64,000 nt of DNA from Saprospiraceae bacterium (GTDB lineage Bacteria > Bacteroidota > Bacteroidia > Chitinophagales > Saprospiraceae): contig JABAQQ010000052.1 in NCBI GenBank assembly GCA_019187225.1, positions 62,001 to 126,000 of the forward strand, read 5' to 3'. Below, one piece after another: positions 2,292 to 63,877 of this stretch. The number at the start of each line of letters is the position of its first letter. Position 1 is the stretch's first letter. A program made the translations under genes and the position numbers. The notes beneath the pieces are model-generated. The model was not told where the DNA came from and did not search any database. It saw only the letters and a program-made list of their open reading frames with translations.

Positions 2292-2369
2292 TTTCCCGCA
2301 GATTTTCGCAGAAAACTTTGCGCAGATAACCGCTGATTTTGATCTCAATCTGCGAAAATCTGCGGGAAA
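2292..2369. repeat. 21-bp perfect inverted repeat between convergent genes
   Basis: Arms 2292-2312 and 2349-2369 are exact reverse complements (first arm begins tttcccgcagattttcgcag). The element starts 5 bases after the TonB-protein stop codon and sits between convergent genes, so it could act as a bidirectional 3' hairpin. The CGCAGAT word recurs inside it. There is no flanking T-run, so it is not a canonical intrinsic terminator. Confidence 0.85.
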
Positions 2370-2417
2370 CACTATAAAAGGTCACATACTTATTAACCCC
2401 CGATTCGCATGACCACT

Positions 2418-3446
2418 TTATTCGTCGCAGCGACGGCAAAAACCCACGCGCGGATGCCACTGCCCTTCCTGGTAATAGAACTTGTAGCGCGGCGCCACCG
2501 CTATCAGGCGCGTATAAAGCAGTCCATCCTCGTCCTGCCAGTAAAATTCTTCGATCAATTGAAGATCAATGATCTGGTCTGGCATCAGTTCGGTGTGGAA
2601 TACCTCGACGTGCTCCAAATTGGTTTCGGGGTCGAAGGTGCTGACCGAGTCGGTACACGAGAACAGGCAGGCGCGTTGATCGGATGAAAGCGGCGCTTCG
2701 TCCAGAAGGGTTCCATAAAGCAGAACCGCTGTGTCCGCCATGATGCGATCAAAAAAACGGTCCATGACAGGGCCCGTTTCATCCTTAACAACCTGGAAAT
2801 CGCTCACGCGCGGGCTGGCGTCGTTGGTTATATACCGCACCGCCCAGGTAACATCCGGTCGGTTGATGAGCGTATCGGGTTGGAATACCTCGGTCTGAGG
2901 CACTTTCAGCCAAAAGCGCGGTGCTTCGCTCCGGGTGAATGGCGCTATAGCCAGTGTGTACACTTTAAACTGCGCTTTTTCATCGTTGTAGGTCAACAAT
3001 TGCCGAACCCTTACGAACCGTGCTTCGTGCGGGAACGGTCGCATATTCCATGCGATCTGCACTTTTTCCTCATAGGTCGTCTGGTCGAACGTAACAATGG
3101 TATCCGGGCCGCTGATGATCTGCAGCAGTTCTTCGGTGTCCAGCGGACGGGTCAGCTCTGCATTGGAATAGGCCTCCCAATCGCCGTTTTCAGCGATATC
3201 CCAGAGTTTGGCGTTGAGCGAATGGTTGATGTAACTGTGAAGAGCAGGTTCGTATTCGGCGGTCAGCTTCAGCGCGGCAAGCGCTGCAGAGCGGTCTTCA
3301 TTGGCTGAAAATTCGAGCGGGTCGGCAGGTAGGGTCAGTTCGATCTCTGCCGCCCAGTTGACCGAAGGGTCTTCCAGGATTTTTTCAGTTTGGGCGAAAA
3401 GGTTCAGGGTCAGCAAGAGCGAAGCGGGTAGTAAAAAACTTTTCAT
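2418..3446 (-). CDS. Secreted protein, possibly GldN-like
   Basis: A 342-residue protein with a signal peptide (MKSFLLPASLLLTLNLFAQ) and no membrane segment afterwards. The composition and the repeated 'tyrosine-asp/glu' beta segments near the end ('EEFYWQDEDGLLYTRLIA') recall GldN-type proteins, which form part of the gliding/T9SS apparatus of Bacteroidota, but the similarity is judged by eye and is weak. Three Cys cluster at the end (CRRC) and two at 'CLFSC'. No neighbouring gldKLM genes are present, so a separate envelope role is equally possible. Confidence 0.6.
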   Translation of the reverse strand: MKSFLLPASLLLTLNLFAQTEKILEDPSVNWAAEIELTLPADPLEFSANEDRSAALAALKLTAEYEPALHSYINHSLNAKLWDIAENGDWEAYSNAELTRPLDTEELLQIISGPDTIVTFDQTTYEEKVQIAWNMRPFPHEARFVRVRQLLTYNDEKAQFKVYTLAIAPFTRSEAPRFWLKVPQTEVFQPDTLINRPDVTWAVRYITNDASPRVSDFQVVKDETGPVMDRFFDRIMADTAVLLYGTLLDEAPLSSDQRACLFSCTDSVSTFDPETNLEHVEVFHTELMPDQIIDLQLIEEFYWQDEDGLLYTRLIAVAPRYKFYYQEGQWHPRVGFCRRCDE

Positions 3447-3449
3447 GGC

Positions 3450-3482
3450 TCAAAAAACGGTTTTTGGCCAAAACCATTTTGA
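3450..3482. repeat. Imperfect palindrome upstream of the 3446 start
   Basis: The sequence is nearly self-complementary around a TTTTGGCCAAAA core and lies 4 bases upstream of the minus-strand ATG at 3446. It is directly followed by GAGACAGCCG, a word also found at the edge of the element at 46722. It could be an operator or a remnant of a dispersed repeat. Confidence 0.5.
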
Positions 3483-3577
3483 GACAGCCGAATGAAATTT
3501 TTAACGAAGCACCCTCACAACAATAAATATCGCCTGCGTAAAAAATTCATTTTCATAGTATTGGGTTGCAAAAACGC

Positions 3578-4627
3578 CTATCTTCCCTTATTGCAATTGC
3601 GTATGATTTCCCGTTTCGATCGCGAAGGGTCTTTCAAGGCATCAAAAAATTGCCCGAAGTACCGGTTCATTTGTTTCCGGGCATTCTCGGGCAGGTAGGC
3701 GGCACGCTCGCAATGGTCGGTCAATGCTTTTTCTTTTGAGAGATAAAAATCGAATATCTGCTGATAATGCGCTTCTGTACGGCATAAACCGAGGTAATAG
3801 CGCTCCTGGACCGTCTGGATGGGGTAATCGCCATTGGGAGCGGCATAATCGGTACCTACCGCTCCGGAATAATCGAAATCGTAGGGCACGGCAATAATGG
3901 TTTTGGGGGAGTTGAGAAAGATCAGCTTTATGTTGTGGCGGGCGCGTACACTCCAATCGGTATTGCCTATCATGTATTCAAATACGCACATCCGGTCGTA
4001 GGAGACAGAATCGAGCACCCGGGTGCTGCCGACGCGGGGTTTCATGGGCCTGCCACCGAGCCGGGCAGCCAATTCTTCTTCGCTTTCGATAAAAAAGGAA
4101 AAACTCTCCATGGTGCGGTTCCTTTTCCCCGGTTCTTCAAATCGAACAGCAGCCGATTTAACGCGGAAACTTTGTTCCGTGATCAGATTATAGAGTTCAT
4201 AAACCAGGTATTCGCGCTGCACCCATTCTTCATTTTTTGGCAGGCTGTAGCAACTGGTCACCAATTTTATTTCATTGATGTCGGCGATGCTGTCGTTTTC
4301 GGGTTTTTGTTCGTAGAAACGTATTTTGACCGGAGGGAAATCACAGGTTTTCCTGCGCATTTTACCGCGCGGCGCGATTTGCACATCGAGTTGCAGCGCC
4401 ACGCTGTCGCCCATCATGACTTTGAAAACAGCTGGTTGCCACGGTTCCGCTTCGGTGCCTTTTTTAAGTTCCTTCAGATTCGTTTCAATATTGACAACGA
4501 GCGGGTTGTATTGTTGTAAAACGCCGAAAATACTCTTATCGCCCGTTTGCAGCGATTGGGAAGAAACAACAAAGGGAGCAGTGATACTTGCCAGAAAGGC
4601 AAGAAGGTACAGATGTATTGTTTTCAT
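3578..4627 (-). CDS. Secreted CotH-kinase-like protein (paralogue of 62817-63833)
   Basis: A 349-residue protein with a signal peptide (MKTIHLYLLAFLASITAPFV). It carries 'IAPRGKMRRKTCDFPPVKIRF', 'IESEEELAARLGGRPM', 'YMIGNTDWSVRARHNIKL' and 'VPYDFDYSGAVGTDYA'. The last two resemble the N-D-W...HN and (P)YDFD motifs of the CotH protein-kinase family, where they bind ATP and metal. A second copy with the same motif order lies at the right end of the window. Location after secretion suggests a periplasmic or surface protein. Kinase activity is an inference; the family assignment rests on motif spacing. Confidence 0.65.
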   Translation of the reverse strand: MKTIHLYLLAFLASITAPFVVSSQSLQTGDKSIFGVLQQYNPLVVNIETNLKELKKGTEAEPWQPAVFKVMMGDSVALQLDVQIAPRGKMRRKTCDFPPVKIRFYEQKPENDSIADINEIKLVTSCYSLPKNEEWVQREYLVYELYNLITEQSFRVKSAAVRFEEPGKRNRTMESFSFFIESEEELAARLGGRPMKPRVGSTRVLDSVSYDRMCVFEYMIGNTDWSVRARHNIKLIFLNSPKTIIAVPYDFDYSGAVGTDYAAPNGDYPIQTVQERYYLGLCRTEAHYQQIFDFYLSKEKALTDHCERAAYLPENARKQMNRYFGQFFDALKDPSRSKREIIRNCNKGR

Positions 4628-4654
4628 GTTGACCGGCCTAAAATGATAAGTATC

Positions 4655-4745
4655 GGTTGATAGTTGTTGGTTCCTGGTTGTTGGTTATTCATTCATGGTT
4701 GCCATAGAAATGGACTACCAAGCAAGTGCCAGGAACCGGGAACAA
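4655..4745. repeat. Inverted heptamer array
   Basis: Left arm 4655-4703 holds seven consecutive 7-base units of the type GGTTNNN (GGTTGAT, AGTTGTT, GGTTCCT, GGTTGTT, GGTTATT, CATTCAT, GGTTGCC). The right arm, about 4714-4745, is A/C-rich and partly complementary (CCAGGAACC, CGGGAAC). It ends 3-4 bases from the stop codon of the minus-strand gene that stops at 4749. Confidence 0.8.
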
Positions 4746-4748
4746 AAC

Positions 4749-5057
4749 TCAATTCACCGAAAAAGCGGGTGCGAAGGGATGAGCCGCGTTGTAGAAAGTC
4801 AGTTCGTTGATGCGAACTTTCATAAAACGGGTCAGGGGCAGGGTCTGGATGATCTGCATCAATTCGGATTCGGAGCGCACGGAAAATACTGCCCAGAGTT
4901 TCGAATTTTCGAGGGAAAGTGCGTAATTGAGGATTTTTCCTTCGTTGAGGAGCCGGTTGACGGCGGCGCGCTGGTGCGGAATACGGCTGACGAATTCTTC
5001 CGGTAATTCCTGAGGCATGGTGAAATCAACCATGTATTGCGTTAGACTGCCTTCCAT
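4749..5057 (-). CDS. Muconolactone-isomerase-like ferredoxin-fold protein
   Basis: A 102-residue protein. The start at MEGSLTQYMVDF is preferred because the upstream extension from 5192 lacks family character and is full of basic, non-conserved residues. The 'YMVDFTMPQELPEEF' beginning, 'RLLNEGKILNYALSLE' centre and 'MQIIQTLPLTRFMKVRI' end match the dimeric alpha+beta barrel fold of muconolactone delta-isomerase/YciI-like proteins. Such proteins are often stand-alone and of unknown substrate. No catabolic neighbours are seen. Confidence 0.7.
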   Translation of the reverse strand: MEGSLTQYMVDFTMPQELPEEFVSRIPHQRAAVNRLLNEGKILNYALSLENSKLWAVFSVRSESELMQIIQTLPLTRFMKVRINELTFYNAAHPFAPAFSVN

Positions 5058-5223
5058 GTATGTTGCCTTTGTTGTGAAAATGCGCCGGACAAATGTAAAT
5101 AAAAATCTATATCTGGTGCAAATTCTTTTTGAATGCTTAAACGATGGGTCAAAAACCGTGCAAATTTTCCGCGAATGAAGCAAATCTGCCATTCCGTCAG
5201 CAGTCTTAACAAAAAGACAACCT

Positions 5224-5262
5224 AAAAAAAGCGGCGGAGCGATCCTGTGTCGCTCCGCCGCT
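5224..5262 (-). terminator. Rho-independent terminator of the repeat/peptidoglycan-binding gene
   Basis: A perfect 13-bp stem (5230-5242 with 5250-5262, agcggcggagcga) with a 7-base loop is followed on the minus strand by seven T (5230-5224). It lies 27 bases past the stop codon of the gene at 5289-6668. Confidence 0.93.
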
Positions 5263-5288
5263 AATAAATTTCCGTTAGGAAACGGGTA

Positions 5289-6668: not shown

Positions 6669-6735
6669 GACGTGAATCGGATTTATGAACATAATTGTTT
6701 GATTTTGGTATTAAAGCCACATTGCTGTTGGAGGG

Positions 6736-6743
6736 CAAATGTA
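6736..6743 (-). promoter_or_regulatory. Candidate -7 box (TACATTTG) of the 5289-6668 gene
   Basis: On the minus strand TACATTTG fits the Bacteroidota TAnnTTTG element and lies 68 bases upstream of the ATG. No good TTG element is visible at the expected spacing. Confidence 0.5.
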
Positions 6744-6793
6744 AGTGAACCCTGCCGAAACAGGTAGCATAACAGTTAAAATTTCAAGCGATT

Positions 6794-8011: not shown

Positions 8012-8029
8012 TGTTGCGGCATGGCAGTG

Positions 8030-9819: not shown

Positions 9820-9825
9820 CGAAAA

Positions 9826-17942: not shown

Positions 17943-17983
17943 CATACGACATACGACATACGACATACGACATGCGACATGCG
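17942..17983. repeat. Heptamer array, single arm (ACATACG x4, ACATGCG x2)
   Basis: Six consecutive 7-base units begin on the last base of the nifJ stop codon. No complementary array follows before the next gene at 18025. A similar unit recurs at 37367-37387 after the mltA-like gene. Confidence 0.9.
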
Positions 17984-18024
17984 ACTTGGCCCGGATTGTT
18001 TTATCACTTTAAATCTGTCAACAC

Positions 18025-20130: not shown

Positions 20131-20805
20131 ATGCGACTTTTCATAATCGCCTTTTTCTTTCTGGCTACTGCTTTCAAATCCGCAATCCCCAATCCGCAAT
20201 CCGCAATCCATCCCCCCACCCTCAAACTCGCCCTGCTCAAATACGCGGGCGGCGGCGACTGGTACAACGACGTGAATTCGCTGAAAAACCTCGCCAAATT
20301 CTGCAACGACAACCTGAGAACTAATTTCGACGTTACGGACTACGCCACCGTCGAACCCGGCAGCGCCGACATTTTCAATTACCCCATCGTGTACGCTACG
20401 GGTCACGGCAACATGCTTTTTACCGACCTCGAAGCCCGCAATATGCGCGCTTACCTCGAAGGCGGCGGCTTCCTGATCCTCAATGACGATTATGGCCTCG
20501 ATCCCTTCGTGCGCCCGGCCATGAAAAAAGTTTTTCCCGAACTCGACTTTGTGGAACTGCCGTTCAGCCACCCCATTTATCACCAGAAATACGAATTCCG
20601 GAACGGTATGCCCAAAATCCACGAGCACGACGGCAAACCTGCCCAGGGCTTTGGCCTGCTCTGGCAAGGCCGCCTCGTCTGCTTTTACAACTTCGAAACC
20701 GACCTCGGCGACGGCTGGGACGACGTGCACAACGACCCCCAGGAACTTCGCCAGAAAGCCCTGCAAATGGGGGCGAATATTGTGCAATATGTGTTCGGAC
20801 AATAA
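20131..20805 (+). CDS. DUF4159 secreted protein with a heptamer array in its coding sequence
   Basis: A 224-residue protein with a signal peptide (MRLFIIAFFFLATAF). The body matches DUF4159: 'KYAGGGDWYNDVNSLKNLAK', 'YPIVYATGHGNMLFTD', 'LEGGGFLILNDDYG' and 'ELPFSHPIYHQKYEF'. Such proteins adopt a glutaminase-like fold and are often found with AAA/MoxR and VWA genes, none of which is adjacent here. Directly after the signal peptide a run of five 7-base units (20177-20211) codes for KSAIPNPQSAIHPP, a spacer absent from the domain proper. purD follows after 53 bases. Confidence 0.85.
   Translation: MRLFIIAFFFLATAFKSAIPNPQSAIHPPTLKLALLKYAGGGDWYNDVNSLKNLAKFCNDNLRTNFDVTDYATVEPGSADIFNYPIVYATGHGNMLFTDLEARNMRAYLEGGGFLILNDDYGLDPFVRPAMKKVFPELDFVELPFSHPIYHQKYEFRNGMPKIHEHDGKPAQGFGLLWQGRLVCFYNFETDLGDGWDDVHNDPQELRQKALQMGANIVQYVFGQ
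20177..20211. repeat. Heptamer array inside a coding region (AATCCGC type)
   Basis: Five units: AATCCGC, AATCCCC, AATCCGC, AATCCGC, AATCCAT. The array is open in this frame and encodes a Pro/Ser/Asn/Gln-rich spacer between signal peptide and domain. Confidence 0.92.
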
Positions 20806-20814
20806 TTTTCTTTG

Positions 20815-20858
20815 CCCACATTGACCACATTCATCCCATTGCCCACATTCCCCACATT
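20815..20858. repeat. Nonamer array between the DUF4159 gene and purD
   Basis: Five 9-base units of the type CCCACATTN (CCCACATTG, ACCACATTC, ATCCCATTG, CCCACATTC, CCCACATT) start 9 bases after the stop codon and end exactly at the purD ATG. No complementary arm is present. Confidence 0.85.
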
Positions 20859-22133
20859 ATGAACATTCTTTTACTCGGCTCCGGCGGACGCGAACACGCC
20901 TTCGCGTGGAAACTCTCGAAAAGTAAACGCTGTTCCCGGCTCTTCATCACCCCCGGCAACGCCGGCACGTCCACCTGCGGCCAAAACGTCGCCCTCAATC
21001 CCCTCGACTTCGATGCCATTGGAAAATTTTGCCTTGACAATCAGATCAATATGGTTGTAGTCGGCCCCGAGGAGCCGCTCGTGCGGGGTATTTGGGACTT
21101 TTTCCAGGAAAATGAAAATCTGAAAAGTATCCCTGTCATCGGCCCTTCCAAAGCCGGAGCGGTATTGGAAGGCAGCAAAGCCTGGAGCAAACAGTTCATG
21201 CAGCGCCACAAGATACCGACCGCGGCGTACCGGGAATTTACGGGGGAGAACATTGGAGATGGCTTGCAATATTTGAAAAAACACAGCCTGCCCATCGTAC
21301 TGAAAGCCGACGGCTTGGCAGCGGGTAAAGGCGTGGTGATTTGCCAGACGCACACAGAAGCGGAGCAGGAATTTCAGGAAATGCTGGGCGGTAAATTCGG
21401 CAGTGCCGGTCATCGCGTGGTCGTGGAGGAGTTTCTATCGGGCATCGAATTCAGCGTGTTCGTCCTGACCGACGGCAAAAATTACAAAATCCTGCCGGAA
21501 GCCAAGGACTACAAGCGCATCGGCGAGGGCGATACCGGGCCGAACACGGGTGGCATGGGCGCCGTCAGCCCGGTGCCTTTTGTGGACGAAACGATGTGGC
21601 AAAAAGTGGAAGAACGCATCATCCGCCCCACCGTGAAAGGTCTGCGCAAAGAAAAAATCCCTTACAAAGGCTTCATTTTCCTCGGTTTGATAAAAGTCAA
21701 CGGCGAACCTTTCGTCATCGAATACAACTGCCGCATGGGCGACCCCGAGACTGAAGTCGTGTTTCCCCGCCTGAAAAACGACCTCGTGACGCTCTTCGAC
21801 AACTGCGCCAAAGGCACGCTGGGCCGCGTGAAGATCCGCGCCGACCAACGTACGGCAGCAACACTTTTCCTCGTGAGTGGAGGCTATCCCGGAGATTATC
21901 AAAAAGGGAAAGTCATCACGGGCTTGGAAAAAGTGAAGGGAAGTACGGCGTTCCACGCCGGGACAACGGAAAAAGGAGGAGAAATCGTCACGAGCGGCGG
22001 ACGTGTCATCGCTTTGACGAGTTTTGGAAAAGACATTGTATCGGCAGTTCGCAAATCGAAGCGGAATGCCAAAGTGGTTGATTTTGACGGTAAATATTAC
22101 CGGCGGGATATCGGGAAAGATTTGATCGGATAA
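20859..22133 (+). CDS. purD: Phosphoribosylamine-glycine ligase
   Basis: A 424-residue GARS of normal length. The start 'MNILLLGSGGREHAFAWKL', 'NMVVVGPEEPLVRGIWDFF', 'PSKAGAVLEGSKAWSKQFM', ATP-grasp segments 'LPIVLKADGLAAGKGVVIC', 'EEFLSGIEFSVF' and 'EYNCRMGDPETEVVFPRL' are diagnostic. It joins phosphoribosylamine and glycine with ATP to give GAR, the second step of purine synthesis. It is a lone purine gene in this window; the nonamer array fills its leader up to the start codon. Confidence 0.97.
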   Translation: MNILLLGSGGREHAFAWKLSKSKRCSRLFITPGNAGTSTCGQNVALNPLDFDAIGKFCLDNQINMVVVGPEEPLVRGIWDFFQENENLKSIPVIGPSKAGAVLEGSKAWSKQFMQRHKIPTAAYREFTGENIGDGLQYLKKHSLPIVLKADGLAAGKGVVICQTHTEAEQEFQEMLGGKFGSAGHRVVVEEFLSGIEFSVFVLTDGKNYKILPEAKDYKRIGEGDTGPNTGGMGAVSPVPFVDETMWQKVEERIIRPTVKGLRKEKIPYKGFIFLGLIKVNGEPFVIEYNCRMGDPETEVVFPRLKNDLVTLFDNCAKGTLGRVKIRADQRTAATLFLVSGGYPGDYQKGKVITGLEKVKGSTAFHAGTTEKGGEIVTSGGRVIALTSFGKDIVSAVRKSKRNAKVVDFDGKYYRRDIGKDLIG

Positions 22134-22972: not shown

Positions 22973-25096
22973 ATGTCCGTCCTCACCACTTTCCAAACCG
23001 CCATCCGTACCGGCATCCCCGCTACTTTGCCTGCCCCCAAGCCCCTCGACCCCAACGTCAGTCATGCCCCGCGCCGCGTGGTGGAAGGCGTATTGTCTGA
23101 GGCGGAAAAAGTGCTCGCCGTGCAAAACGCCCTGCGCTATTTCCCCCCGGCCTCGCACCGCGAACTGGCCGCCGAATTTGCACAGGAGTTGGCGGAATAC
23201 GGTCGCATCTACATGTACCGCTTTCGCCCGGATTATGCGATGCACGCCCGGCCCATCGAAGATTACCCCTACAAATCGCGGCAGGCAGCAGCCATCATGC
23301 TGATGATCCAGAACAACCTCGACCCCAAAGTTGCCAAACACCCGCACGAACTCATCACCTACGGCGGCAACGGCGCGGTGTTCCAGAACTGGGCGCAATA
23401 CCTGCTGACCATGCAATACCTGTCGGAAATGACGGACCATCATACGCTGGTGATGTATTCCGGCCACCCGATGGGGCTTTTTCCCAGCCACCCCGACGCG
23501 CCGCGCGTGGTGGTGACCAACGGTATGATGATCCCCAACTATTCCAAAAAAGAAGACTGGAACCGCTACAACGCCCTCGGCGTGACCCAATACGGCCAGA
23601 TGACCGCCGGTTCGTATATGTACATCGGACCGCAGGGCATCGTGCATGGCACCACGATCACCCTCCTCAACGCCGGGCGCAAAATGGGCCTCGGCGACGA
23701 CGATCTGCGCGGCAAAGTGTTCGTTACCAGTGGTTTGGGCGGTATGTCGGGCGCGCAGGCGCTCGCGGGCATCATCACCGCGTCGGTCACGGTTATCGCC
23801 GAAGTGGACGCCGACGCCATCCGGCAACGCCTCACCGACGGCTACATCCGGCAGGAAAATGTCTTTAATGACTTAAATGACCTGATAATTGCCCTCGAAA
23901 AATGCCGCCGCGACAAAACACCCGTCGCCCTCGTGTACCACGGCAACATCGTTGACCTCTGGGAACGCTTTGTGCGCGACAACATCCGGGTCGAACTGGG
24001 TAGCGACCAGACGAGTTGCCACAACATCCACGACATGGGCTACTGCCCGGTGGGCTATACTTTTGAGGAGGCCAAACAACTGCTCATCCGGGACAAAACG
24101 CAATTCCTGGAAGCCGTCCGAACCTCGTTGCGCCGCCACGTCGCCGCCATCAATGTCATGGCGGATCGCGGCATGTATTTCTGGGATTACGGCAATGCGT
24201 TCCTCAAAGAAGCGGGCGATGCCGGCGCGGATGTCTGGAAATCAGACATCCCGGATTCGCAAGCAGGTAACTCCGTCCAATCCGCAATCCGCAATCCGCA
24301 ATCCCCAATCCCCAATCCCCAATCCCAGATCACTTCTCCCTATCGCTATCCTTCCTACGTCGAAGACATCATGGGCCCGCTTTGTTTCAATTACGGTTTC
24401 GGCCCTTTCCGCTGGGTGTGCTGCTCGGGTTCGCAGGAAGACCTCGACAAAACTGACCGCATCGCGGCAGATATTTTGGAGAAGATGCTCACCGATTCAC
24501 CTGCAGAAATACACGGCCAACTCAAGGACAACCTCATCTGGATACAAAAAGCGAAGCAGCAGATACCAGTGGTGGGTTCAAAGTCGAGAATCTTGTATGC
24601 TGATTCGGAAGGCCGCATCCGGATCGCCCGGTCCTTCAACGACGCCATTGCGAGCGGCGAATTGTCAGGCCCGATCGTGCTGGGCCGCGACCACCACGAC
24701 GTGAGCGGCACCGATTCGCCCTTCCGCGAAACGGCCAACATCTACGACGGCTCCCGCTTCACAGCAGATATGGCGGTGCAAAACGTCATAGGCGATGCGT
24801 TCCGGGGCGCTACCTGGGTGAGCCTGCACAACGGCGGCGGCGTGGGCTGGGGCGAAGTCATCAACGGTGGTTTCGGCATGGTGCTCGACGGCTCGGCAGA
24901 TGCCGAACGCCGCCTGCAATCCATGCTCTTCTGGGACGTGAACAACGGCATCAGCAGGCGCGCCTGGGCGCGCAACCCGCACGCTCTCAGCACCTTGCAG
25001 CGCACGATGGAGCAGTATCCCGACCTGAAAGTGACGGTGCCGTATCTGGCGGATGAGGCGGTGGTGCGGGAGGCAATGAATAAAGTAAAAGTTTGA
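22973..25096 (+). CDS. hutU: Urocanate hydratase with an array-encoded insertion
   Basis: A 707-residue enzyme. 'LITYGGNGAVFQNWAQYLL', 'YSGHPMGLFPSHPDAPRVVV', 'GPQGIVHGTTITLLNAGR', 'VTSGLGGMSGAQALAGII' (NAD-binding) and the catalytic-Cys region 'FGPFRWVCCSGSQEDLD' identify urocanase, which converts urocanate to imidazolone propionate in histidine breakdown. Between 'KEAGDAGADVWKSDI' and 'RYPSYVEDIMGP' about 33 extra residues occur, including QSAIRNPQSPIPNPQSQI, encoded by seven 7-base repeat units (24279-24327). The site corresponds to a loop in the family. hutH, hutI and hutG are not in the window. Confidence 0.95.
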   Translation: MSVLTTFQTAIRTGIPATLPAPKPLDPNVSHAPRRVVEGVLSEAEKVLAVQNALRYFPPASHRELAAEFAQELAEYGRIYMYRFRPDYAMHARPIEDYPYKSRQAAAIMLMIQNNLDPKVAKHPHELITYGGNGAVFQNWAQYLLTMQYLSEMTDHHTLVMYSGHPMGLFPSHPDAPRVVVTNGMMIPNYSKKEDWNRYNALGVTQYGQMTAGSYMYIGPQGIVHGTTITLLNAGRKMGLGDDDLRGKVFVTSGLGGMSGAQALAGIITASVTVIAEVDADAIRQRLTDGYIRQENVFNDLNDLIIALEKCRRDKTPVALVYHGNIVDLWERFVRDNIRVELGSDQTSCHNIHDMGYCPVGYTFEEAKQLLIRDKTQFLEAVRTSLRRHVAAINVMADRGMYFWDYGNAFLKEAGDAGADVWKSDIPDSQAGNSVQSAIRNPQSPIPNPQSQITSPYRYPSYVEDIMGPLCFNYGFGPFRWVCCSGSQEDLDKTDRIAADILEKMLTDSPAEIHGQLKDNLIWIQKAKQQIPVVGSKSRILYADSEGRIRIARSFNDAIASGELSGPIVLGRDHHDVSGTDSPFRETANIYDGSRFTADMAVQNVIGDAFRGATWVSLHNGGGVGWGEVINGGFGMVLDGSADAERRLQSMLFWDVNNGISRRAWARNPHALSTLQRTMEQYPDLKVTVPYLADEAVVREAMNKVKV
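24279..24327. repeat. Heptamer array inside hutU
   Basis: Seven consecutive units: AATCCGC three times, AATCCCC three times, AATCCCA. The array is in frame without stops and codes for a Pro/Asn/Gln/Ser-rich insertion. It uses the same unit as the array in the DUF4159 gene. Confidence 0.93.
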
Positions 25097-27826: not shown

Positions 27827-28289
27827 ATGTCCGACAGCGAAATCATCTTGTACCAGTCCGAAGACGGCCAGACCAAAGTCGAAGTCCGTATGGAGGGAGA
27901 GACGGTTTGGCTGACGCTGAACCAGTTGGTCGAGCTTTTCCAAAAGGCAAAGTCCACCATCAGCGAGCACATCCGCAACATATTTTGAGGAGGGCGAACT
28001 TCCCGAAAACGAGGCAACTGTTCGGAAATTCCGAACAGTTCAAAGCGAAGGCGGACGCGAAGTGGAAAGAGATTTGGAATTTTACAACCTCGATGTCATT
28101 ATCTCGGTGGGGTACCGAGTAAAATCGCATCGCGGCACACAATTCCGCATCTGGGCGACGCAGCGGCTGCGCGAGTACATCATCAAAGGTTTCGCGCTCG
28201 ACGACGAACGGCTGAAACGCGGTGGAGCGATGAACTATTTTGACGAACTCCAGCCCCAATTTTTTGAATGCCGAAAGGCGATTACATGA
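27827..28289 (+). pseudogene. rhuM-like virulence/abortive gene, frameshifted and truncated
   Basis: The first 54 codons (27827-27988) read SEIILYQSEDGQTKVEVRME ... NQLVELFQKAKSTISEHI and end in TGA right after 'HIRNIF'. Removing one T from the TTTT run at about 27982-27985 restores 'NIFEEGELPENEATVRKFRT', which continues as 'DLEFYNLDVIISVGYRVKSH' and 'RIWATQRLREYIIKGFALDD' in the frame of 28062. This is the RhuM family, normally about 330 residues. Here the product breaks off after 'GGAMNYFDEL', where the inverted repeat at 28263 begins. So the gene has a frameshift and has lost its C-terminal half. Confidence 0.85.
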
Positions 28290-28388
28290 TTGACGATTGA
28301 CGATGTTTCCTTACTTACCCATCAAATCTCAGGCGCTACCACCCACATCGTATTTCGTATTTCATGTAATCGCCTTTCGGCATTCAAA
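28263..28388. repeat. 27-bp perfect inverted repeat, 126-bp element
   Basis: Arms 28263-28289 and 28362-28388 are exact reverse complements (core atgccgaaaggcgattacat). Inside, the left side has ATTGACG twice and the right side CGTATTT twice, again 7-base units. The element joins the broken end of the rhuM-like gene to the stop of the esterase gene (2 bases away). It is either a MITE-like insertion or a hairpin of the array family. Confidence 0.88.
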
Positions 28389-29837: not shown

Positions 29838-29980
29838 ATTGGACTTTTTGACGTTGGACATTGGACTTTTGGCCGTCGCTAAAAAATCTGCGGCTTGTAA
29901 ACCAGAGTGCAATTCGCCGCAAAGTTCCGAAAAGTCCGGTGTCAAAAGTCCAAAGTCCAACGCCAATTAGTCCAACGTCC
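29838..29980. repeat. Inverted heptamer array between divergent genes
   Basis: Left arm about 29838-29873 carries NTTGGAC units; right arm about 29939-29980 carries GTCCAAN units. The right arm ends at the ATG of the YdcF gene. It is one of the few arrays not placed after a stop codon. Confidence 0.75.
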
Positions 29981-38915: not shown

Positions 38916-40196
38916 ATGGAAGCATACGGAGCCATTTTAAACCTCGTCGTCCCCATTTTTTTTCTCTTGTATTTCATCGAAAAATTTGTCGCCTGGCAAC
39001 GTGGAGAAAAGGTCATCCGCGGGCTGGATAGTGTTTCGAGTTTCAGTTCGGGCATTACCAACGTCGTGAAAGACGTGCTGGGCCTGAGCGTGGGTATTCT
39101 GAGTTATTCCTGGTTGGAAGGCCGTGTGGCGTTGGTACACATCGAAGCGACCTGGCTGGTGTATGCCATCGCATTTATAGCCGTTGACTTTCAGGGATAT
39201 TGGGTACACCGCTGGAGCCACGAGATCAATTTTCTGTGGAACCGCCACATCATCCACCACAGCAGCGAAGAATTCAACCTGTCGTGCGCCCTGCGGCAAT
39301 CCATTTCCACATTTATCAATTACTTTACTTTTTTGTTGTTGCCCGCCGCTTTGCTTGGAGTGCCGGGCAAGGTCATCGCAGTCATCGGGCCGATCCATCT
39401 TTTCCTGCAATATTGGTATCACACCCGGCTGATTGGAAAAATGGGTTGGCTGGAAAGTGTCATCGTCACGCCGTCGCACCACCGCGTACACCACGCCATC
39501 AACCCCGAGTACATGGATAAAAACTACGGACAGGTCTTTATTTTTTGGGACAAGTGGTTCGGTACTTTCCAACCGGAACTGGACGATGTGCCGCCCGTTT
39601 ACGGCGTCAAACGACCCGTGCATACCTGGAACCCTTTCAAGATCAATTTCCAGCATTTCTGGCTATTGCTCACCGATGCCTGGCGCACGCGCAACTGGTG
39701 GGACAAACTGCGTCTGTGGTTCATGCCCACCGGCTGGCGGCCCGAAGATATGAAAGCGCGGTACCCGGTGCCCGCCATCACCGACGTGTATCATTTTGAA
39801 AAATACGATACCAAAGCCTCGCGCGCATTGGTGGCGTGGTCGTGGGTGCAGATGTTCTTCAACTACTTTTTGTTGATTTACTTTTTCGCCTTCCTCGGAA
39901 AGATCGGCTCGCCGGGTATTTTCCTGTATGGCGCTTTCATTTTCGCTTCCATTTATGCCTACACAGAATTGATGGACAGAAACCGGTACGCTCATTTTTT
40001 CGAGATCATCAAGTCGGCTTTCGGTTTGTACCTGATATGGCAGGCGGGCGGCGACTGGTTCGGCGCCCGCGCGAACGTGGGAGCGTGGTACGTGTATATC
40101 GTAACGGCGTATTGCATCTCGTCGGCAGCGGTGGCGACGCTGTTTGCAGAGTTTGAAATCAAACGGGGTAAGGCAGTGGCGATTACGGTTTTTTAA
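38916..40196 (+). CDS. AGMO-like fatty acid hydroxylase/sterol desaturase family membrane enzyme
   Basis: A 426-residue multi-pass protein. The histidine clusters of the di-iron hydroxylase family are intact: 'YWVHRWSHEINFLWNRHIIH' followed by 'HSSEEFNLSCALRQ', and 'VTPSHHRVHHAINPEYMDKN'. The wording HSSEExNLSxALRQ and DKNYxxxxxxWDxxFGTF is closer to alkylglycerol monooxygenase (TMEM195) than to sterol desaturase. Five or more membrane segments are evident, with three in the C-terminal extension (about 310-420). A tetrahydropterin-dependent ether-lipid cleavage is possible but unproven. Confidence 0.88.
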   Translation: MEAYGAILNLVVPIFFLLYFIEKFVAWQRGEKVIRGLDSVSSFSSGITNVVKDVLGLSVGILSYSWLEGRVALVHIEATWLVYAIAFIAVDFQGYWVHRWSHEINFLWNRHIIHHSSEEFNLSCALRQSISTFINYFTFLLLPAALLGVPGKVIAVIGPIHLFLQYWYHTRLIGKMGWLESVIVTPSHHRVHHAINPEYMDKNYGQVFIFWDKWFGTFQPELDDVPPVYGVKRPVHTWNPFKINFQHFWLLLTDAWRTRNWWDKLRLWFMPTGWRPEDMKARYPVPAITDVYHFEKYDTKASRALVAWSWVQMFFNYFLLIYFFAFLGKIGSPGIFLYGAFIFASIYAYTELMDRNRYAHFFEIIKSAFGLYLIWQAGGDWFGARANVGAWYVYIVTAYCISSAAVATLFAEFEIKRGKAVAITVF

Positions 40197-40201
40197 GTAG
40201 C

Positions 40202-40282
40202 CGGACATTGGATTTTAGACATTGGACATCAGACTAAATGATTGGTTTCCAAGGTCTGATAGCCCAACGTCCAATGTCAATC
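40202..40282. repeat. Inverted short-tandem array between convergent genes
   Basis: Left arm about 40202-40240 (GGACATT, GGATTTTA, GACATT, GGACATCA) and right arm about 40253-40282 (GGTCTGAT, GTCCAAT, GTCAATC) are roughly complementary. It starts 5 bases after the hydroxylase stop codon and precedes the rpoC terminator. Confidence 0.75.
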
Positions 40283-40327
40283 TATTTTGCCCACATGCTT
40301 AGAAAACAAAAGTAAACATTTTCCCGC

Positions 40328-46598: not shown

Positions 46599-46737
46599 AC
46601 CCGCGGCTGTCTCATAATTCTGTTTATTTGTTTATCTGTGGATTTGGTTATTTCGTTGCACCTCCATGATCAGCGCTGCTTTCAAATAAACAAATCATCA
46701 TATTAACAAATAACCGACTTCTGAGACAGCCGCGGGT
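46599..46737. repeat. 139-bp inverted-repeat element with octamer arrays, after rpoB
   Basis: Terminal arms 46599-46614 and 46722-46737 (acccgcggctgtctca) are exact reverse complements. Inside, 8-base units GTTTATTT, GTTTATCT, GTGGATTT, GGTTATTT face AAATAAAC, AAATCATC, ATATTAAC, AAATAACC. The element ends 11 bases after the rpoB stop. The combination of terminal repeats and tandem arms looks MITE-like; GGCTGTCTCA also occurs, inverted, at 3480. Confidence 0.8.
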
Positions 46738-50712: not shown

Positions 50713-50876
50713 TTGGACGTTGGACTGTTGGACTGTTGGACGTTGGACGTTGGACGTTGGACGTTGGACGTTGGACGTTGGACGTTGGACAGAGCGATGT
50801 TGGACGTTTGATCAAAAAAATGTCCAAAGTCCAACAGTCTAAAAGTCTAATGTCCTATGTCAGGCAGTCCTATGTC
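50713..50876. repeat. Inverted heptamer array upstream of rpoB (TTGGACG x8)
   Basis: Left arm 50713-50791 holds eleven units: TTGGACG, TTGGACTG twice, TTGGACG seven times, TTGGACA. After a further TTGGACG at 50800 and an A-run the right arm (50821-50876) has TGTCCAA, AGTCCAA, CAGTCTA, AAGTCTA, TGTCCTA-type units. It is the longest array in the window and occupies the rplL-rpoB gap. Confidence 0.93.
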
Positions 50877-51432: not shown

Positions 51433-51540
51433 TGTTGTAGAATTTTAAAAAGTGGTTTGCGAATGAGTGTGAATAAAGGTATCAGGGTTGGATGGTTACA
51501 AGGTTTCGAGGGTATATAGTGCGAACTTGGAAGCCAAGAT

Positions 51541-51617
51541 TGGAAATTGGAAATTGGAAATTGGAAATTGGAAATTACAGCGTGCGGCGGAAATTTCTAA
51601 TTTCTTAATTTCCAATT
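51541..51617. repeat. Inverted heptamer array between rplJ and rplL
   Basis: Left arm 51541-51575: TGGAAAT five times. Right arm about 51593-51617: ATTTCTA, ATTTCTT, ATTTCCA, ATTTT. The right arm abuts the rplJ stop codon (51618) with no gap. Confidence 0.93.
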
Positions 51618-52145: not shown

Positions 52146-52186
52146 TTCTTTTATATGTTGAAATGGTGAGTGTTGTGTGAGATTCC

Positions 52187-52282
52187 GGTTATTCGGTTAT
52201 TTGTTTATTTGATTATGCTCGATCCCGATGATTGGGGGCTACCAGATAACCAAATCCACAATTCCACAAATAACCAAACAAT
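52187..52282. repeat. Inverted octamer array between rplA and rplJ
   Basis: Left arm 52187-52218: GGTTATTC, GGTTATTT, GTTTATTT, GATTATGC. Right arm 52243-52282: CAGATAAC, CAAATCCA, CAATTCCA, CAAATAAC, CAAACAAT. Both arms have period 8. The right arm runs up to the rplA stop codon. Confidence 0.9.
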
Positions 52283-53034: not shown

Positions 53035-53121
53035 CTATTGGTTGTGAGTTATTGGTTATTGGTATCGCAGGCAATTCGCATTATTCAACCACAAACCAAT
53101 TACCGACAACTAATAACCAAT
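53035..53121. repeat. Inverted heptamer array between rplK and rplA
   Basis: Left arm 53035-53062: CTATTGG, TTGTGAG, TTATTGG, TTATTGG. Right arm 53087-53121: AACCACA, AACCAAT, TACCGAC, AACTAAT, AACCAAT. Period 7 in both arms; the right arm ends on the base before the rplK stop codon. Confidence 0.93.
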
Positions 53122-54512: not shown

Positions 54513-54552
54513 TATCGCTGTAAAGACTTGTCCCGCACGCGCGGAAATTTCA

Positions 54553-54651
54553 GTTGTTCGTTGATCGTTGTTCGTTATTTACCCGCCTTTATCTGCGAAA
54601 AAAGTCCGTTGTCGCGCATGACCGACCAACGAACAACTGATAACGAATCAC
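54553..54651. repeat. Inverted heptamer array between tRNA-Trp and secE
   Basis: Left arm 54553-54580: GTTGTTC, GTTGATC, GTTGTTC, GTTATTT. Right arm 54624-54651: GACCAAC, GAACAAC, TGATAAC, GAATCAC. Four exact 7-base units in each arm; it starts 7 bases past the tRNA 3' end. Confidence 0.93.
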
Positions 54652-54731: not shown

Positions 54732-54742
54732 AAAATGGTTTT

Positions 54743-54822
54743 CGGTTATCAGTTATTGGTTATTAGTAACCAGATAGATTGTTCTGCACTAATAACCAAT
54801 AACCATTAACCAATAACCAATA
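54743..54822. repeat. Inverted heptamer array between tuf and tRNA-Trp
   Basis: Left arm 54743-54770: CGGTTAT, CAGTTAT, TGGTTAT, TAGTAAC. Right arm 54788-54822: ACTAATA, ACCAATA, ACCATTA, ACCAATA, ACCAATA. It begins 4 bases after the tuf stop codon. Confidence 0.93.
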
Positions 54823-56153: not shown

Positions 56154-56218
56154 AAGTCATTATTGACATTAAAGTAATTAAAATGACGCTTAATGACTTC
56201 AATGACCTTAATAACTTC
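56154..56218. repeat. Inverted nonamer array between tRNA-Gly and tRNA-Thr
   Basis: Left arm 56154-56180: AAGTCATTA, TTGACATTA, AAGTAATTA. Right arm 56182-56218: AATGACGCTT, AATGACTTC, AATGACCTT, AATAACTTC. Period 9 in both arms; it starts 4 bases after the tRNA-Gly 3' end. Confidence 0.88.
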
Positions 56219-56493: not shown

Positions 56494-56498
56494 TTTTT

Positions 56499-56583
56499 GA
56501 TTGCGGATTTCGGATTGACGATTGCGGATGCGGGTTGCTCGTTTTTTAAATCTGCAATCCGAAATCCGAAATCAAAAATCAGA
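56499..56583. repeat. Inverted heptamer array between tRNA-Thr and tRNA-Tyr
   Basis: Left arm 56499-56540: GATTGCG, GATTTCG, GATTGAC, GATTGCG, GATGCGG, GTTGCTC. Right arm 56549-56583: AATCTGC, AATCCGA, AATCCGA, AATCAAA, AATCAGA. It fills nearly the whole gap, 3 bases from one tRNA and 5 from the other. Confidence 0.93.
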
Positions 56584-56586
56584 ATG

Positions 56587-57683: not shown

Positions 57684-58244
57684 ATGACTTACAGCGACGA
57701 GCATCTGACGGGGGAAATCCGCACCGGCGGCGTCCGGCAGGAAAGGGCTGTGAAACATCTCTATGAGCAATGTTTCCACATCGTCCGCTACGGCAAAACA
57801 AAATACCGCCAACTCGACGACGACGACCTTGTGAGCGCCTACAACTCAGCCATCCTCGCCGTACGCAACCAGATACTGAACGGCGCTTTTCGCGGCGACA
57901 GCGCGATACAAACTTACCTCAACCGGATTTTTATGAACCGGTGCATTGATTTCCTGCGCGCCAAATCGTCTAACCCCATAGAATTCGTGGAACGGCTTCC
58001 CGACAACGCCGATGAAAGCCAGGATTTGCTGAACCGCTGGGTTACGGAAGAACAAATAGAAAAGGTCAGGCAAAAGCTCCTGCAACTCGGAGGCGTGTGT
58101 CAACAGATCCTGATGTACTCGGAGTACTTAGGGTACAACTCTGCAGAGATAGCCGAAGCCATCGGGTTCAAAAACGCGAACAGTGTAAACAGTAAAAAAT
58201 ACGCCTGCCTTCAAAAACTCCGCGAACTGATGGGCGTGAAATAA
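57684..58244 (+). CDS. ECF-type RNA polymerase sigma factor
   Basis: A 186-residue sigma-70 family protein. Region 2 spans about 15-90 ('FRGDSAIQTYLNRIFMNRCI', 'DFLRAK'), region 4 about 125-180 ('ILMYSEYLGYNSAEIAEAIG', 'FKNANSVNSKKYACLQKLRE'), whose second helix binds the -35 element. The next gene, 8 bases on, encodes a membrane protein with an anti-sigma-like N-terminus, and then follows a TPR-CHAT gene. This set resembles sigma/CHAT neighbourhoods seen in other Bacteroidota. Confidence 0.92.
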   Translation: MTYSDEHLTGEIRTGGVRQERAVKHLYEQCFHIVRYGKTKYRQLDDDDLVSAYNSAILAVRNQILNGAFRGDSAIQTYLNRIFMNRCIDFLRAKSSNPIEFVERLPDNADESQDLLNRWVTEEQIEKVRQKLLQLGGVCQQILMYSEYLGYNSAEIAEAIGFKNANSVNSKKYACLQKLRELMGVK

Positions 58245-58252
58245 TCAGGAAA

Positions 58253-59032: not shown

Positions 59033-59099
59033 CGGTTCTTTTTCATCAAAAAAATCTTCATTCTGAAAAGTTTGCGAAGATTTTGCCGCTGTTGTTTCA

Positions 59100-59107
59100 T
59101 ACTTTTG
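59100..59107 (+). promoter_or_regulatory. Candidate -7 box (TACTTTTG) of the CHAT gene
   Basis: TACTTTTG matches TAnnTTTG and lies 101 bases before the ATG at 59209, so the CHAT gene may have its own promoter, apart from the sigma/anti-sigma pair. Confidence 0.45.
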
Positions 59108-59208
59108 GGCGCACCTAAATCCCGCTTCAGCCTCTGAAAGGTCTTTAGAAACATGATCTATCCGCTAATCCTTTCCATATTGTCCGCAAAATGCGCTAAA
59201 CGTATCGC

Positions 59209-62190: not shown

Positions 62191-62214
62191 TCGGGAGAAA
62201 AGAGATTTTCCCGA
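62191..62214 (+). terminator. Weak hairpin after the CHAT gene
   Basis: tcggga...tcccga with an A4/T4 extension lies directly after the stop codon; there is no following T-run on the plus strand. Confidence 0.35.
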
Positions 62215-62286
62215 TATTGGGAAAAACGATCCAATTAACCATCACGCACTTTCAGTTATTTTCACATTATAAAACCTGTTTTTACC

Positions 62287-62736
62287 ATGGGAAGAATCAG
62301 AGTACAAGTCAGTCAGGGCGGAGGCACCGACGATGACCCCGCAATACTGGGTTCAGGCCCGGTTACCGTTACCCTCACCGCGGAAACTTCGGGAGATTCG
62401 GTTCCCGGAGGCATGAACGTATCGCTGAGCGTCAACGGCTCATCTGTCGGAAGCCCTCAGACCACTCCCACAGGGACGAATCCGAATGATACCCTTTCGT
62501 ATCCATTCGTTGGTTCCGCAGTAAATCTGCCGTACGTCGTCACGGTGACAAATGCGCCGCGAGGTACCGAATTTGACGGTTTGACCGGCAATGTAGGACA
62601 ATCAGCTTTTCCCGCTGCGGGCGTGGGCAAAAGTGCAGCCGAAGTGCCAGCACCGGAAGATACCCGCCGCGCCATGTCGCTTATTCAAAAGGTAATATGG
62701 TTCCTGCGCAGATTATTCGGGCAAAAAGCGCTTTAG
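62287..62736 (+). CDS. Small beta-rich protein of unknown function next to the CHAT gene
   Basis: A 149-residue protein without a signal peptide. Residues 1-100 ('GSGPVTVTLTAETSGDSVPG', 'MNVSLSVNGSSVGS', 'LPYVVTVTNAPRGTEFDGL') look like an Ig- or beta-sandwich-type domain rich in Thr, Ser, Gly. A Pro/Ala linker leads to a basic amphipathic end ('MSLIQKVIWFLRRLFGQKAL') that could insert into or bind a membrane. No family is recognised. It is 96 bases after the CHAT gene in the same direction and could be its effector, substrate or partner. Confidence 0.7.
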   Translation: MGRIRVQVSQGGGTDDDPAILGSGPVTVTLTAETSGDSVPGGMNVSLSVNGSSVGSPQTTPTGTNPNDTLSYPFVGSAVNLPYVVTVTNAPRGTEFDGLTGNVGQSAFPAAGVGKSAAEVPAPEDTRRAMSLIQKVIWFLRRLFGQKAL

Positions 62737-62816
62737 CGGCTAACTGACATTATCAATTGTACCCCAAATTACCTTTCTTTGCCAAATCAACTTACTGTGA
62801 TTCAATACAACCACCC

Positions 62817-63833
62817 ATGAAATATTTTGCTGCATTCCTCCTTTTTATACATGCCGGAATATACCTCGCCGCGCAAGCCCCCCCGGTTGCGCCATCCACT
62901 ATCTTTGAAAAAATTACCGCTGCCGAAGGCATCGAACTGACACTGGAAGCCGATCTGACCACTTTCGTCGGGCAGAAAAAAACCAATAATTACATTCCAG
63001 GTACCTTGCGGATGAAAGACGGCAAAACCTACACGGTAGAAATTCGCCCTCGCGGTCGGTACCGCCGGAAAGTATCGCAGGTGCCGCCGATGAAGATCCG
63101 TTTCAGCGAGAACGACTTGCGGGCCGACGATCTGGACACCCTCAACGAAATAAAAATCGCTTTGCCAAGCGTCCACAACGAACAAGGCAATGAACTCATC
63201 ATCAAGGAGTATCTGGCCTACCGGATGTTTGAAAAAATTTCCGACGCTCATTTCCGCGCCCGGCTTGTGAAGCTCAACCTCATTGATACCAATAAAAAAG
63301 GCTTGGGAAAGAAAAAATTATTCGCCATTTTTATCGAGGACGAAGAGGAAGTGGCCCGGCGGCTTGGCGGCGAACCGGAGGACGAGTATGGTATCAAAAT
63401 AGAAAAATTCGACCAACAACAGGTAGCCCTGGTGGTAATGTTCCAATACCTGATCGGCAACACCGACTGGGATATGCCCATGCACCGCAACGTTGAACTA
63501 TTCAAAAGAAATCAAAGCGACAAATTGCTCGCGTTGCCCTACGATTTTGATTTTTCCGGCCTGGTCAGTGCCCCCTATGCCAGCCCTTCGTCCGAAAGCG
63601 GTGTAAAAACCGTGCGCGACCGTTTTCTGATGTCATCGGGAGTAGACGCAGAAGCGTTGAAATCCGCAGTCGGCCAGTTAAAAGCCAATGAAAAGGAATT
63701 TTACAAGATATGCCGCTGCAAATACCTTTCTAATGAATCTTCGATCGCAATGGTCAATTTCCTCGAGTCTTTTTTCAAATACATGGAAGGCAAAGACGAG
63801 GCGCCAACCGTAATGGCGGAAAGGAGGGAATAG
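62817..63833 (+). CDS. Secreted CotH-kinase-like protein (paralogue of 3578-4627)
   Basis: A 338-residue protein starting at MKYFAAFLLFIHAGIYLAAQ (signal peptide); the ATG at 62757 adds unsupported residues. 'IRPRGRYRRKVSQVPPMKIR', 'LDTLNEIKIALP', 'FIEDEEEVARRLGGEP', 'QYLIGNTDWDMPMHRNVELF' and 'LALPYDFDFSGLVSAPYASP' follow the same motif order as the protein at 3578-4627, over the whole length. The N-T-D-W...H-R-N and P-Y-D-F-D motifs recall CotH kinases. It may phosphorylate a secreted or surface protein, but this is not shown. Confidence 0.65.
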   Translation: MKYFAAFLLFIHAGIYLAAQAPPVAPSTIFEKITAAEGIELTLEADLTTFVGQKKTNNYIPGTLRMKDGKTYTVEIRPRGRYRRKVSQVPPMKIRFSENDLRADDLDTLNEIKIALPSVHNEQGNELIIKEYLAYRMFEKISDAHFRARLVKLNLIDTNKKGLGKKKLFAIFIEDEEEVARRLGGEPEDEYGIKIEKFDQQQVALVVMFQYLIGNTDWDMPMHRNVELFKRNQSDKLLALPYDFDFSGLVSAPYASPSSESGVKTVRDRFLMSSGVDAEALKSAVGQLKANEKEFYKICRCKYLSNESSIAMVNFLESFFKYMEGKDEAPTVMAERRE

Positions 63834-63835
63834 GG

Positions 63836-63877
63836 GGATTTCGGATTGCGGATTGCGGATTGCGGATTTCGGATTGG
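63836..63877. repeat. Heptamer array, single arm (GGATTGC type)
   Basis: Six units: GGATTTC, GGATTGC three times, GGATTTC, GGATTGG. It starts 3 bases after the stop codon; no complementary arm is visible before the window end. Confidence 0.92.

Follow-up and report, generated by a model that had tools for sequence, protein, structure and literature searches.

Short tandem arrays with a common strand polarity at gene edges in a Saprospiraceae genome

In a 2007 survey, as told in the passages covered of PMC4679880, heptamers outnumbered the other classes of longer simple repeats in most of the genomes surveyed. The closest described system is that of Rehm et al. (2015, PMC4692102), who report heptameric repeats built of GGGAATC in Xanthomonas and of GGGGA(T/C)T in Nostoc, with a focus on quadruplexes. 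In the parts of that paper that bear on position, the G-rich strand is the coding strand 0–50 bp after stop codons and the non-coding strand 0–50 bp before start codons, and inverted ('convergent') pairs are found in Xanthomonas (70 and 75 cases), with few in Nostoc. The same parts state that repeats overlap stop codons, that long repeats lie at different genes in related species, and that the repeats have no general association with mobile elements. MacGregor (2015, PMC4679880) describes, again in the passages covered, TAACTGA direct repeats in Beggiatoaceae, some Cyanobacteria and five Bacteroidetes. No agreed function for heptamer repeats was found in the open-access literature searched. 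Here we analyse tandem arrays of short units in the genome of a Saprospiraceae bacterium (7.18 Mb, 73 contigs), starting from a window of 64,000 nucleotides, bases 62001–126000 of contig 23. A sequence-only reading of this window had described a family of such arrays, mostly paired as inverted arms and placed directly after genes, and knew of no earlier account of inverted arrays abutting 3' ends. That last point does not hold: such arrays are among those described in Xanthomonas in PMC4692102, so the kind is already known and the Saprospiraceae arrays are a variant of it.

The genome was sampled as the window plus 40 stretches of 20 kb from contigs 1–20, 864 kb in total, with genes called by a custom hexamer script rather than a standard caller. 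Array counts in the gaps between genes were compared with dinucleotide shuffles (five per gap) and hairpin counts with one shuffle per gap. Period-7 arrays numbered 63, compared with 1.0 in shuffled gaps, and the figures were 35 and 1.2 for period 8 and 18 and 1.6 for period 9; a hairpin score of at least 14 was reached in 90 of 399 gaps and in 0 of 399 shuffled ones. These counts are so far beyond the shuffles that the phenomenon is clearly real, and the arrays are genome-wide. Within the window, most of the places named by the sequence-only reading, which had given periods of 7, 8 and 9, were confirmed by Tandem Repeats Finder as arrays of period 7 or, in some cases, of period 8, 9 or 10. 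A stricter set, used below, comprises 124 arrays; of the 464 gaps with a length of 20–1500 bp, 94 contain at least one. The commonest period in it is 7 (44/124), and 8–10 and 13–15 also occur.

For this set, the arrays were oriented by their G-rich strand before distances to the edges of open reading frames (ORFs) were taken. Of the 124 arrays, 66 have the 5' end of their G-rich strand no more than 20 nt from an ORF edge, and only 10 have its 3' end so close (P = 3e-11). The edges near these 66 5' ends are 38 stops and 28 starts. Read as the sense strand, arrays within 20 nt of an edge are G-rich in 38 cases and C-rich in 9 at stops, and G-rich in 1 and C-rich in 28 at starts (Fisher P = 7e-12); all 28 start-edge arrays precede called genes. 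Polarity is therefore the better rule, and 'directly after genes' is half of it. Many arrays do follow genes directly, as had been claimed, but those at 20177 and 24277 lie inside the ORFs of a DUF4159 protein and urocanase, and others abut start codons, a placement that the sequence-only reading had not mentioned.

The polarity persists when copies of MITE1 are excluded, this being a dispersed palindrome of the kind known as a miniature inverted-repeat transposable element (MITE) and discussed below: 44 vs 10 in gaps with a single array, 20 vs 3 in convergent gaps and 8 vs 0 in divergent gaps. It also extends to other genomes. By RplA, the nearest named relatives are Saprospiraceae and Saprospirales assemblies. 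In 52 loci from other members of the genus it is 42 vs 7 of 107 oriented arrays within 20 nt. In 80 loci from named Bacteroidota it is weaker, 13 vs 1 within 12 nt and 15 vs 4 within 20 nt, and without the first 15 loci it is 12 vs 4 (P = 0.08). This named set overlaps the genus set by three loci (L049, L050 and L051, apparently the same contigs as those of G026, G017 and G002). The samples of G005, G011, G012, G021, G031 and G060 are too small for good gene calls, and three short pieces of G053 were left out.

The same positions and the same polarity are reported in the part of PMC4692102 cited above, where the repeats were suggested to be G-quadruplex elements. The same explanation is scarcely credible here. 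A three-tier quadruplex is possible by pattern in just 3 of the 124 arrays, and the polarity persists both in the 67 arrays that have neither a G3 nor a G2 pattern (33 vs 5) and in the 18 that have no GG at all (10 vs 2). Quadruplex formation was for this reason rejected as the cause of the polarity. A rule known for quadruplex-forming repeats in two other phyla thus extends here to words that lack this potential, and its cause must be more general.

Periodic arms were found in 54 hairpins of the sample. In 53 of them it is the left arm that is richer in G, as the sequence-only reading had said of most loci in the window; for other hairpins the figure is 32 of 49. The 80 named Bacteroidota loci contain 13 periodic hairpins in 483 gaps, 12 of them with a G-richer left arm, and include examples from Hymenobacter and Fibrella. 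In the 39 of 54 hairpins long enough for comparison, the arms match each other at 0.78 in register and 0.61 when shifted by one or two units, and a single arm matches itself one unit on at 0.67. The arms are either inverted copies or have had their complementarity maintained. The units are of many kinds, as had been noted, but they do not simply differ from locus to locus: among 666 pairs of period-7 loci, 136 have a word in common, against a mean of 18 and a maximum of 32 for shuffled words. Recurrence is given as pair counts here, merging of words at one mismatch having chained unrelated words together.

Within the window, 19 intervals were audited, most of them from the earlier list. An inverted pair (hairpin score of at least 10) was found in 13, and in 11 of those 13 the RNA-fold z score is about -3.0 or lower. 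The earlier description needs correction at the other six, which have no inverted partner (17943, 20806, 24277, 27641, 44696 and 63834). The main loci are as follows.

2292..2369: hairpin of period about 10 (TTTCCCGCAGATTTTCGCAGA), outer end 5 nt past the stop at 2286; flanks common to four other loci, loop scored as unique.
4655..4737: degenerate GGTTGTT array paired with an inverted one; its end falls 11 nt short of the stop codon of gene 4749, which is on the minus strand (score 10.5, fold z -6.4).
17943..17985: single ACATACG array with no inverted partner, 0 nt past the stop of pyruvate:ferredoxin oxidoreductase (nifJ).
20812..20858: array of the 9-mer CCCACATTG, C-rich in the sense strand, abutting the purD start codon (20859) and 6 nt past the DUF4159 stop.
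24277..24326: CCAATCC/AATCCGC array within the urocanase ORF.
29839..29975: hairpin whose TTGGAC arms mirror each other in the order of their units (match of 0.88 in register and 0.54 when shifted).
40193..40301, + strand: full-length MITE1 copy, overlapping the end of a fatty-acid hydroxylase gene by 4 nt.
46599..46737: MITE2 copy (GGCTGTCTCA ends, GTTTATTTG arms), 11 nt past the rpoB stop.
50713..50855: TTGGACG array with inverted GTCCAA partner, in the rplL-rpoB gap.
51539..51617: ATTGGAA hairpin, 0 nt past the rplJ stop, preceding a leader conserved in congeners (GGCTTCCAAG).
52186..52281: inverted pair of the 8-mer GGTTATTT, 0 nt past the rplA stop; fold z just 0.1.
53037..53121: GGTTATT-type hairpin, 0 nt past the rplK stop.
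54550..54640: GTTGTTC hairpin behind tRNA-Trp, ending about 17 nt from the tRNA.
54736..54822: GGTTATT hairpin 4–7 nt from the tuf stop, in the gap that separates tuf from tRNA-Trp.
56154..56217: hairpin of the 9-mer GTCATTNNN, about 2 nt behind tRNA-Gly.
56494..56581: GATTGCG hairpin between tRNA-Thr(TGT) and tRNA-Tyr, about 4 nt from tRNA-Thr(TGT).
63836..63876: single GGATTGC array with no inverted partner, 2 nt past the stop at 63833.

Most distances agree with, or come close to, those first given (0 nt for nifJ, rplK, rplA and rplJ, 11 for rpoB, and the short ones for tuf, tRNA-Gly and tRNA-Thr(TGT)); that for tRNA-Trp had been given as 7 and is about 17. The identity of purD at 20859 was confirmed by Pfam. 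Arrays of the AATCCGC type lie at 20177–20209 in the DUF4159 ORF as well as in urocanase; none of the frames of this type of word contains a stop codon, which allows ORFs to read through it. The loop of the tRNA-Trp hairpin has a core, ACAACGGACTTTTTTCGC, that is common with the congener G009, and the arms differ. At 28262–28388, beside the esterase stop, an inverted repeat (GAATGCCGAAAGGCGATTACATGA...) flanks short GATTGAC and TCGTATT repeats. Known RNA families in the window, at the gathering threshold, are five tRNAs and nothing else.

We hypothesise that the arrays are products of local slippage at the untranslated edges of genes, that their strand is set by selection at the RNA level, and that the paired form serves as a 3' stem. 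We give this reading a probability of roughly 0.4, which is below even. All three of its parts (slippage origin, selection as the cause of the polarity, and a 3' barrier function) are inferences drawn from DNA sequence. Arrays of 7–10-mers would arise locally in untranslated DNA by slippage or hairpin-templated copying and would fill functionless spacer up to the gene edge, with RNA-level selection retaining the strand that is tolerated. Just before a start codon, the mRNA strand would be A/C-rich and would not fold on itself, leaving an unstructured leader. Bacteroidota depend little on Shine-Dalgarno pairing. Just past a stop codon, the mRNA strand would be G/U-rich, and where both strands come to lie in one spacer, or an inverted copy is formed, the result would be a G-first hairpin. 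The stem behind the stop would then most likely act as a 3' barrier to exonucleases that, once Rho-dependent termination has taken place, fixes and protects the end of the mRNA; behind genes such as tuf, an array stem could replace an ordinary hairpin. Some words may have been seeded by dispersed palindromes (MITE1, with about 100 copies), whose arms would then expand.

The placement of hairpins was examined in tandem gaps, where 18 of 32 periodic hairpins begin within 12 nt past the upstream stop, against a mean of 7.4 for uniform placement (none of 5000 placements as high). Only 2 of the 32 have their end in the 12 nt that precede the next start. Ordinary, non-periodic hairpins show no stop-side excess (6/29 vs 4.6 expected). 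The excess is seen in hairpins whose loop is unique in the sample (13/21 vs 4.7 expected); for those belonging to dispersed palindromes, 5 of 11 are near the stop against 2.8 expected (P = 0.07). Inverted, foldable elements behind stop codons are thus commoner than under uniform placement, but a position rule at gene ends is not supported. Starts are abutted too, and with a zone of 60 nt upstream of the next start closed to arrays, the expectation for the 21 unique-loop hairpins rises to 11.3, which makes the 13 observed unremarkable (P = 0.12); a closed zone of 40 nt gives P = 0.04 and one of 20 nt P = 0.001.

This closed zone is an argument for neutral slippage alone, in which arrays can originate at any point of untranslated DNA, selection clears them from coding and regulatory sequence, and neither their position at edges nor the hairpins have a function. 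Neutral slippage agrees as well with the spacer that remains, which is similar in gaps with and without an element (tandem median 86 vs 93 nt), and with the density of arrays in gaps, which varies about three- to eleven-fold among near relatives. Neutral slippage does not, however, yield the polarity (66 vs 10), nor G-first arms in 53 of 54 hairpins, nor the hairpin found after tuf in 22 of 22 genomes (see below). We regard it as unlikely.

Where arrays touch a stop codon, their phase carries on into it (0.52 vs 0.37 expected, 23 arrays) and into the last nine coding bases (0.34 vs 0.26, P = 0.002). TAG is enriched at such stops (13/24 vs 93/566). The in-phase run and the TAG enrichment together suggest that some arrays may supply the stop codon. 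A related idea, that arrays act as a fail-safe by offering stop codons in all frames, was unconvincing: a stop lies within the first units of only 19 of the 44 arrays within 12 nt of a stop.

The sequence-only reading had offered a terminating system as one possible function. A run of T follows the stem in 7 of 60 hairpins, against a background of 14%, and in view of this lack of a U-tract excess the hairpins are not ordinary intrinsic terminators. Terminators whose stems are repetitive by accident would account for the convergent gaps being richest in hairpins (14/65, compared with 8/87 in divergent gaps, Fisher P = 0.04) and for the non-repetitive hairpin followed by a T-run that is seen in some congeners at the same site after tuf. 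But elements also sit between rplK, rplA, rplJ and rplL, and arrays also precede start codons, which leaves this explanation very improbable. A stem without a U-tract excess, in genomes where rho was found in all those tested (8/8), would fit a barrier to 3' exonucleases. In the passages covered of PMC13289151, 3' ends protected after Rho-dependent termination are a class described in E. coli.

The sequence-only reading had also proposed a mobile repeat that targets gene ends, and had treated all the arrays as one family. Two members, at 40193–40301 and 46599–46737, are in fact copies of dispersed palindromes. Sharing between loci was judged by loops and masked flanks, plain clustering of flanks being confounded by arrays that enter them. 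Of the 54 periodic-arm hairpins, 11 overlap copies of MITE1 and 5 copies of MITE2, and 38 have loops unmatched elsewhere in the sample; this is an upper figure, because at least four share flanks with other loci (window 2292, L009 16133, L016 10516 and L032 11270). MITE1 is a palindrome of about 110 bp with terminal inverted repeats and the ends TAAGYA...TACTTA, present as dispersed non-coding copies. Its core has 101 matches in the genome (up to 2 mismatches) and 0–8 in each of 40 congeners, where it is close to background. MITE2 is seen in five hairpins with GGCTGTCTCA-like ends and 8-mer arms, the other copies being L030 18123, L033 5509 and 10634, and L035 8588; its ends may resemble those of an insertion sequence.

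These palindromes speak for a reading in which gene ends are insertion sites for a mobile element (a MITE, or one like the repetitive extragenic palindromes, REP/REPIN) whose copies decay into arrays with time. Also in its favour, some MITE1 copies contain expanded heptamer arrays, so that one path from mobile palindrome to array is visible, some TTGGAC hairpins bear a weak resemblance to MITE1, and a few unique-loop hairpins share flanks as noted. Distances for MITE1 were taken from the element's own ends. Placement succeeded for 33 of 34 near-full copies, and 9 of these 33 have a stop within 12 nt on either side. In tandem gaps, however, 5 of 20 copies have a stop at a distance of 12 nt or less, where 3.3 would be expected (P = 0.18), so that MITE1 shows no preference for stops, and the position excess is carried by the hairpins with unique loops. 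Outside the arrays, the 16 loci with GGATTGC and the 14 with GGTTATT that were compared share no sequence but one short match for each word, whereas all 30 MITE1 loci compared have common sequence there. No autonomous copy of MITE1 was found in a search that was not exhaustive: eight matches to the end pattern without the core proved to be seven near-full copies and one fragment, and the gene lying between two MITE1-like matches in L225 encodes a phosphoesterase-type protein rather than a transposase. PF01797 (RAYT) has three matches in the genome, and at the one locus inspected (L253) it is not flanked by MITE1, with only a fragment about 1.4 kb away. On this evidence we consider insertion of a mobile palindrome at gene ends improbable.

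The sequence-only reading had proposed that orthologous gaps be compared between strains for presence, absence and unit number. The gaps of the rpoB-tuf region were compared across 22–23 genomes of the genus, including this one, with hairpins judged against 50 shuffles. The gap after tuf has a hairpin in 22 of 22 genomes, but its word and its periodicity vary. It is periodic in 14 by script and in 12 clearly; depending on thresholds the count is 14 or 13, the marginal cases being G026, where a 6-mer tract lies beyond the hairpin, and G003, with a single match of 15 nt. Eight words are found after tuf, GGTTATT, GATGAAT, GACGGTA and the GGTGATT type in two genomes each and TTTTGAG, GAGGCGA, CAGTCAA and GAATGCG in one each, and other gaps have a non-repetitive hairpin at the same site. 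After rplK a hairpin is present in 12 of 23 genomes (10 periodic), and after rplJ in 6 of 23, all periodic; of the others at rplJ, nine have only 1–9 nt from the stop to the conserved leader and eight have longer spacers without a passing hairpin. G006 and G030 have the same word after tuf and rplJ, and different words after rplK and rpoB. Words are thus replaced in orthologous gaps between species. Larger genomes tend to have more elements in the gaps after tuf, rplK and rplJ (Spearman 0.56, P = 0.005, 23 genomes), and array hairpins are missing from these three gaps in all five genomes that do not exceed 4.2 Mb.

Array wealth also differs between genomes as a whole. TTGGACN has 172 matches here and is absent from 59 of 60 other family genomes sampled. 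G031, of the same family and another genus, gave 320 matches of a CAGGTTN array in the reversed pattern control and is apparently rich in a different heptamer. Profile searches covered 23 genomes with TIGR00619, 11 with PF01797 and 8 with TIGR00767. Loss of the hairpin nuclease SbcCD was rejected as the reason for array wealth, TIGR00619 being matched in 23 of 23 genomes with no clean link to array number; in three genomes the matches are above cut-off (G008, G012 and G014, the last with neighbours).

Several observations weigh against slippage with RNA-level selection, in addition to the effect of the 60-nt closed zone. Convergent gaps show the polarity too (18 vs 3 within 12 nt); as these have stops on both sides, selection at the mRNA level fits the start edges well but not the polarity seen there. 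Single arrays such as ACATACG at 17943–17985 violate the rule that the sense strand is G-rich after stops, and the hairpin in the tuf gap of G014 has a C-richer left arm. Words recur across loci, which purely local birth would not predict, and divergent gaps hold hairpins too. U-runs follow 3 of 13 periodic and 4 of 9 other hairpins in the tuf gap, a difference that is not significant. Finally, G007 and G009, the nearest genomes by RpoB, have few periodic hairpins (3 in 180 kb and 4 in 220 kb, respectively), against 54 in 864 kb here, which means that any function is dispensable. The polarity might instead be built in, with a directional process laying G/T-rich units from the gene edge outward whichever way the gene is read, taking its word from a seed or template that varies between lineages, overwriting spacer up to selected sequence, and common to Bacteroidota, Xanthomonas and Cyanobacteria. 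This we consider distinctly improbable; if true, each intergenic gap would resemble two telomere-like ends face to face. In the genus, the same gaps are available in more than twenty natural replicates, where the element may be missing, present or built of another word, so that both function and birth of the arrays are directly testable.

Comparison with the described systems, in each case as far as the passages covered of the sources allow, places the arrays as follows. They are like the Xanthomonas and Nostoc repeats of PMC4692102 in their period of 7, their many loci, inverted pairs, polarity and overlap with stop codons. They differ in that each of those genomes has one quadruplex-forming word, whereas here there are many words and 121 of 124 arrays have no three-tier quadruplex pattern; and here, unlike in that report, the host belongs to the Bacteroidota, orthologous gaps were compared in 22–23 genomes, and mobile palindromes occur alongside. 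The TAACTGA repeats of PMC4679880 are also heptamers near start codons, with a patchy distribution and 7-nt indels between relatives, but they consist of one word, are direct, lie mostly before starts and include one inverted pair in 170 sets. Tandem TAACTGA has 0 exact pairs in the 864-kb sample and the 52 genus loci, with 51 single copies. In stem P6b of the Nostoc tRNA-Leu intron (PMC4476775), both arms contain heptamers, length changes by 7 nt and the class is replaced among strains, but this is a single intron locus away from gene edges. The BrickBuilt MITE of Porphyromonas (PMC4596501) is an intergenic inverted repeat with a tandem array within a Bacteroidota MITE, and MITE1 is of such a sort; its unit is 23 nt and it lies 49–591 nt from genes, whereas 38 of the 54 hairpins here have unique loops. 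Borg tandem repeats (PMC9879509) share rapid, independent origin and a base bias, but are perfect, have units of 18–21 nt, and are archaeal and extrachromosomal, with no inverted arrays in the passages covered. What is new here is the occurrence in Bacteroidota, the many words, the polarity without quadruplex potential, and the replacement of words in orthologous gaps.

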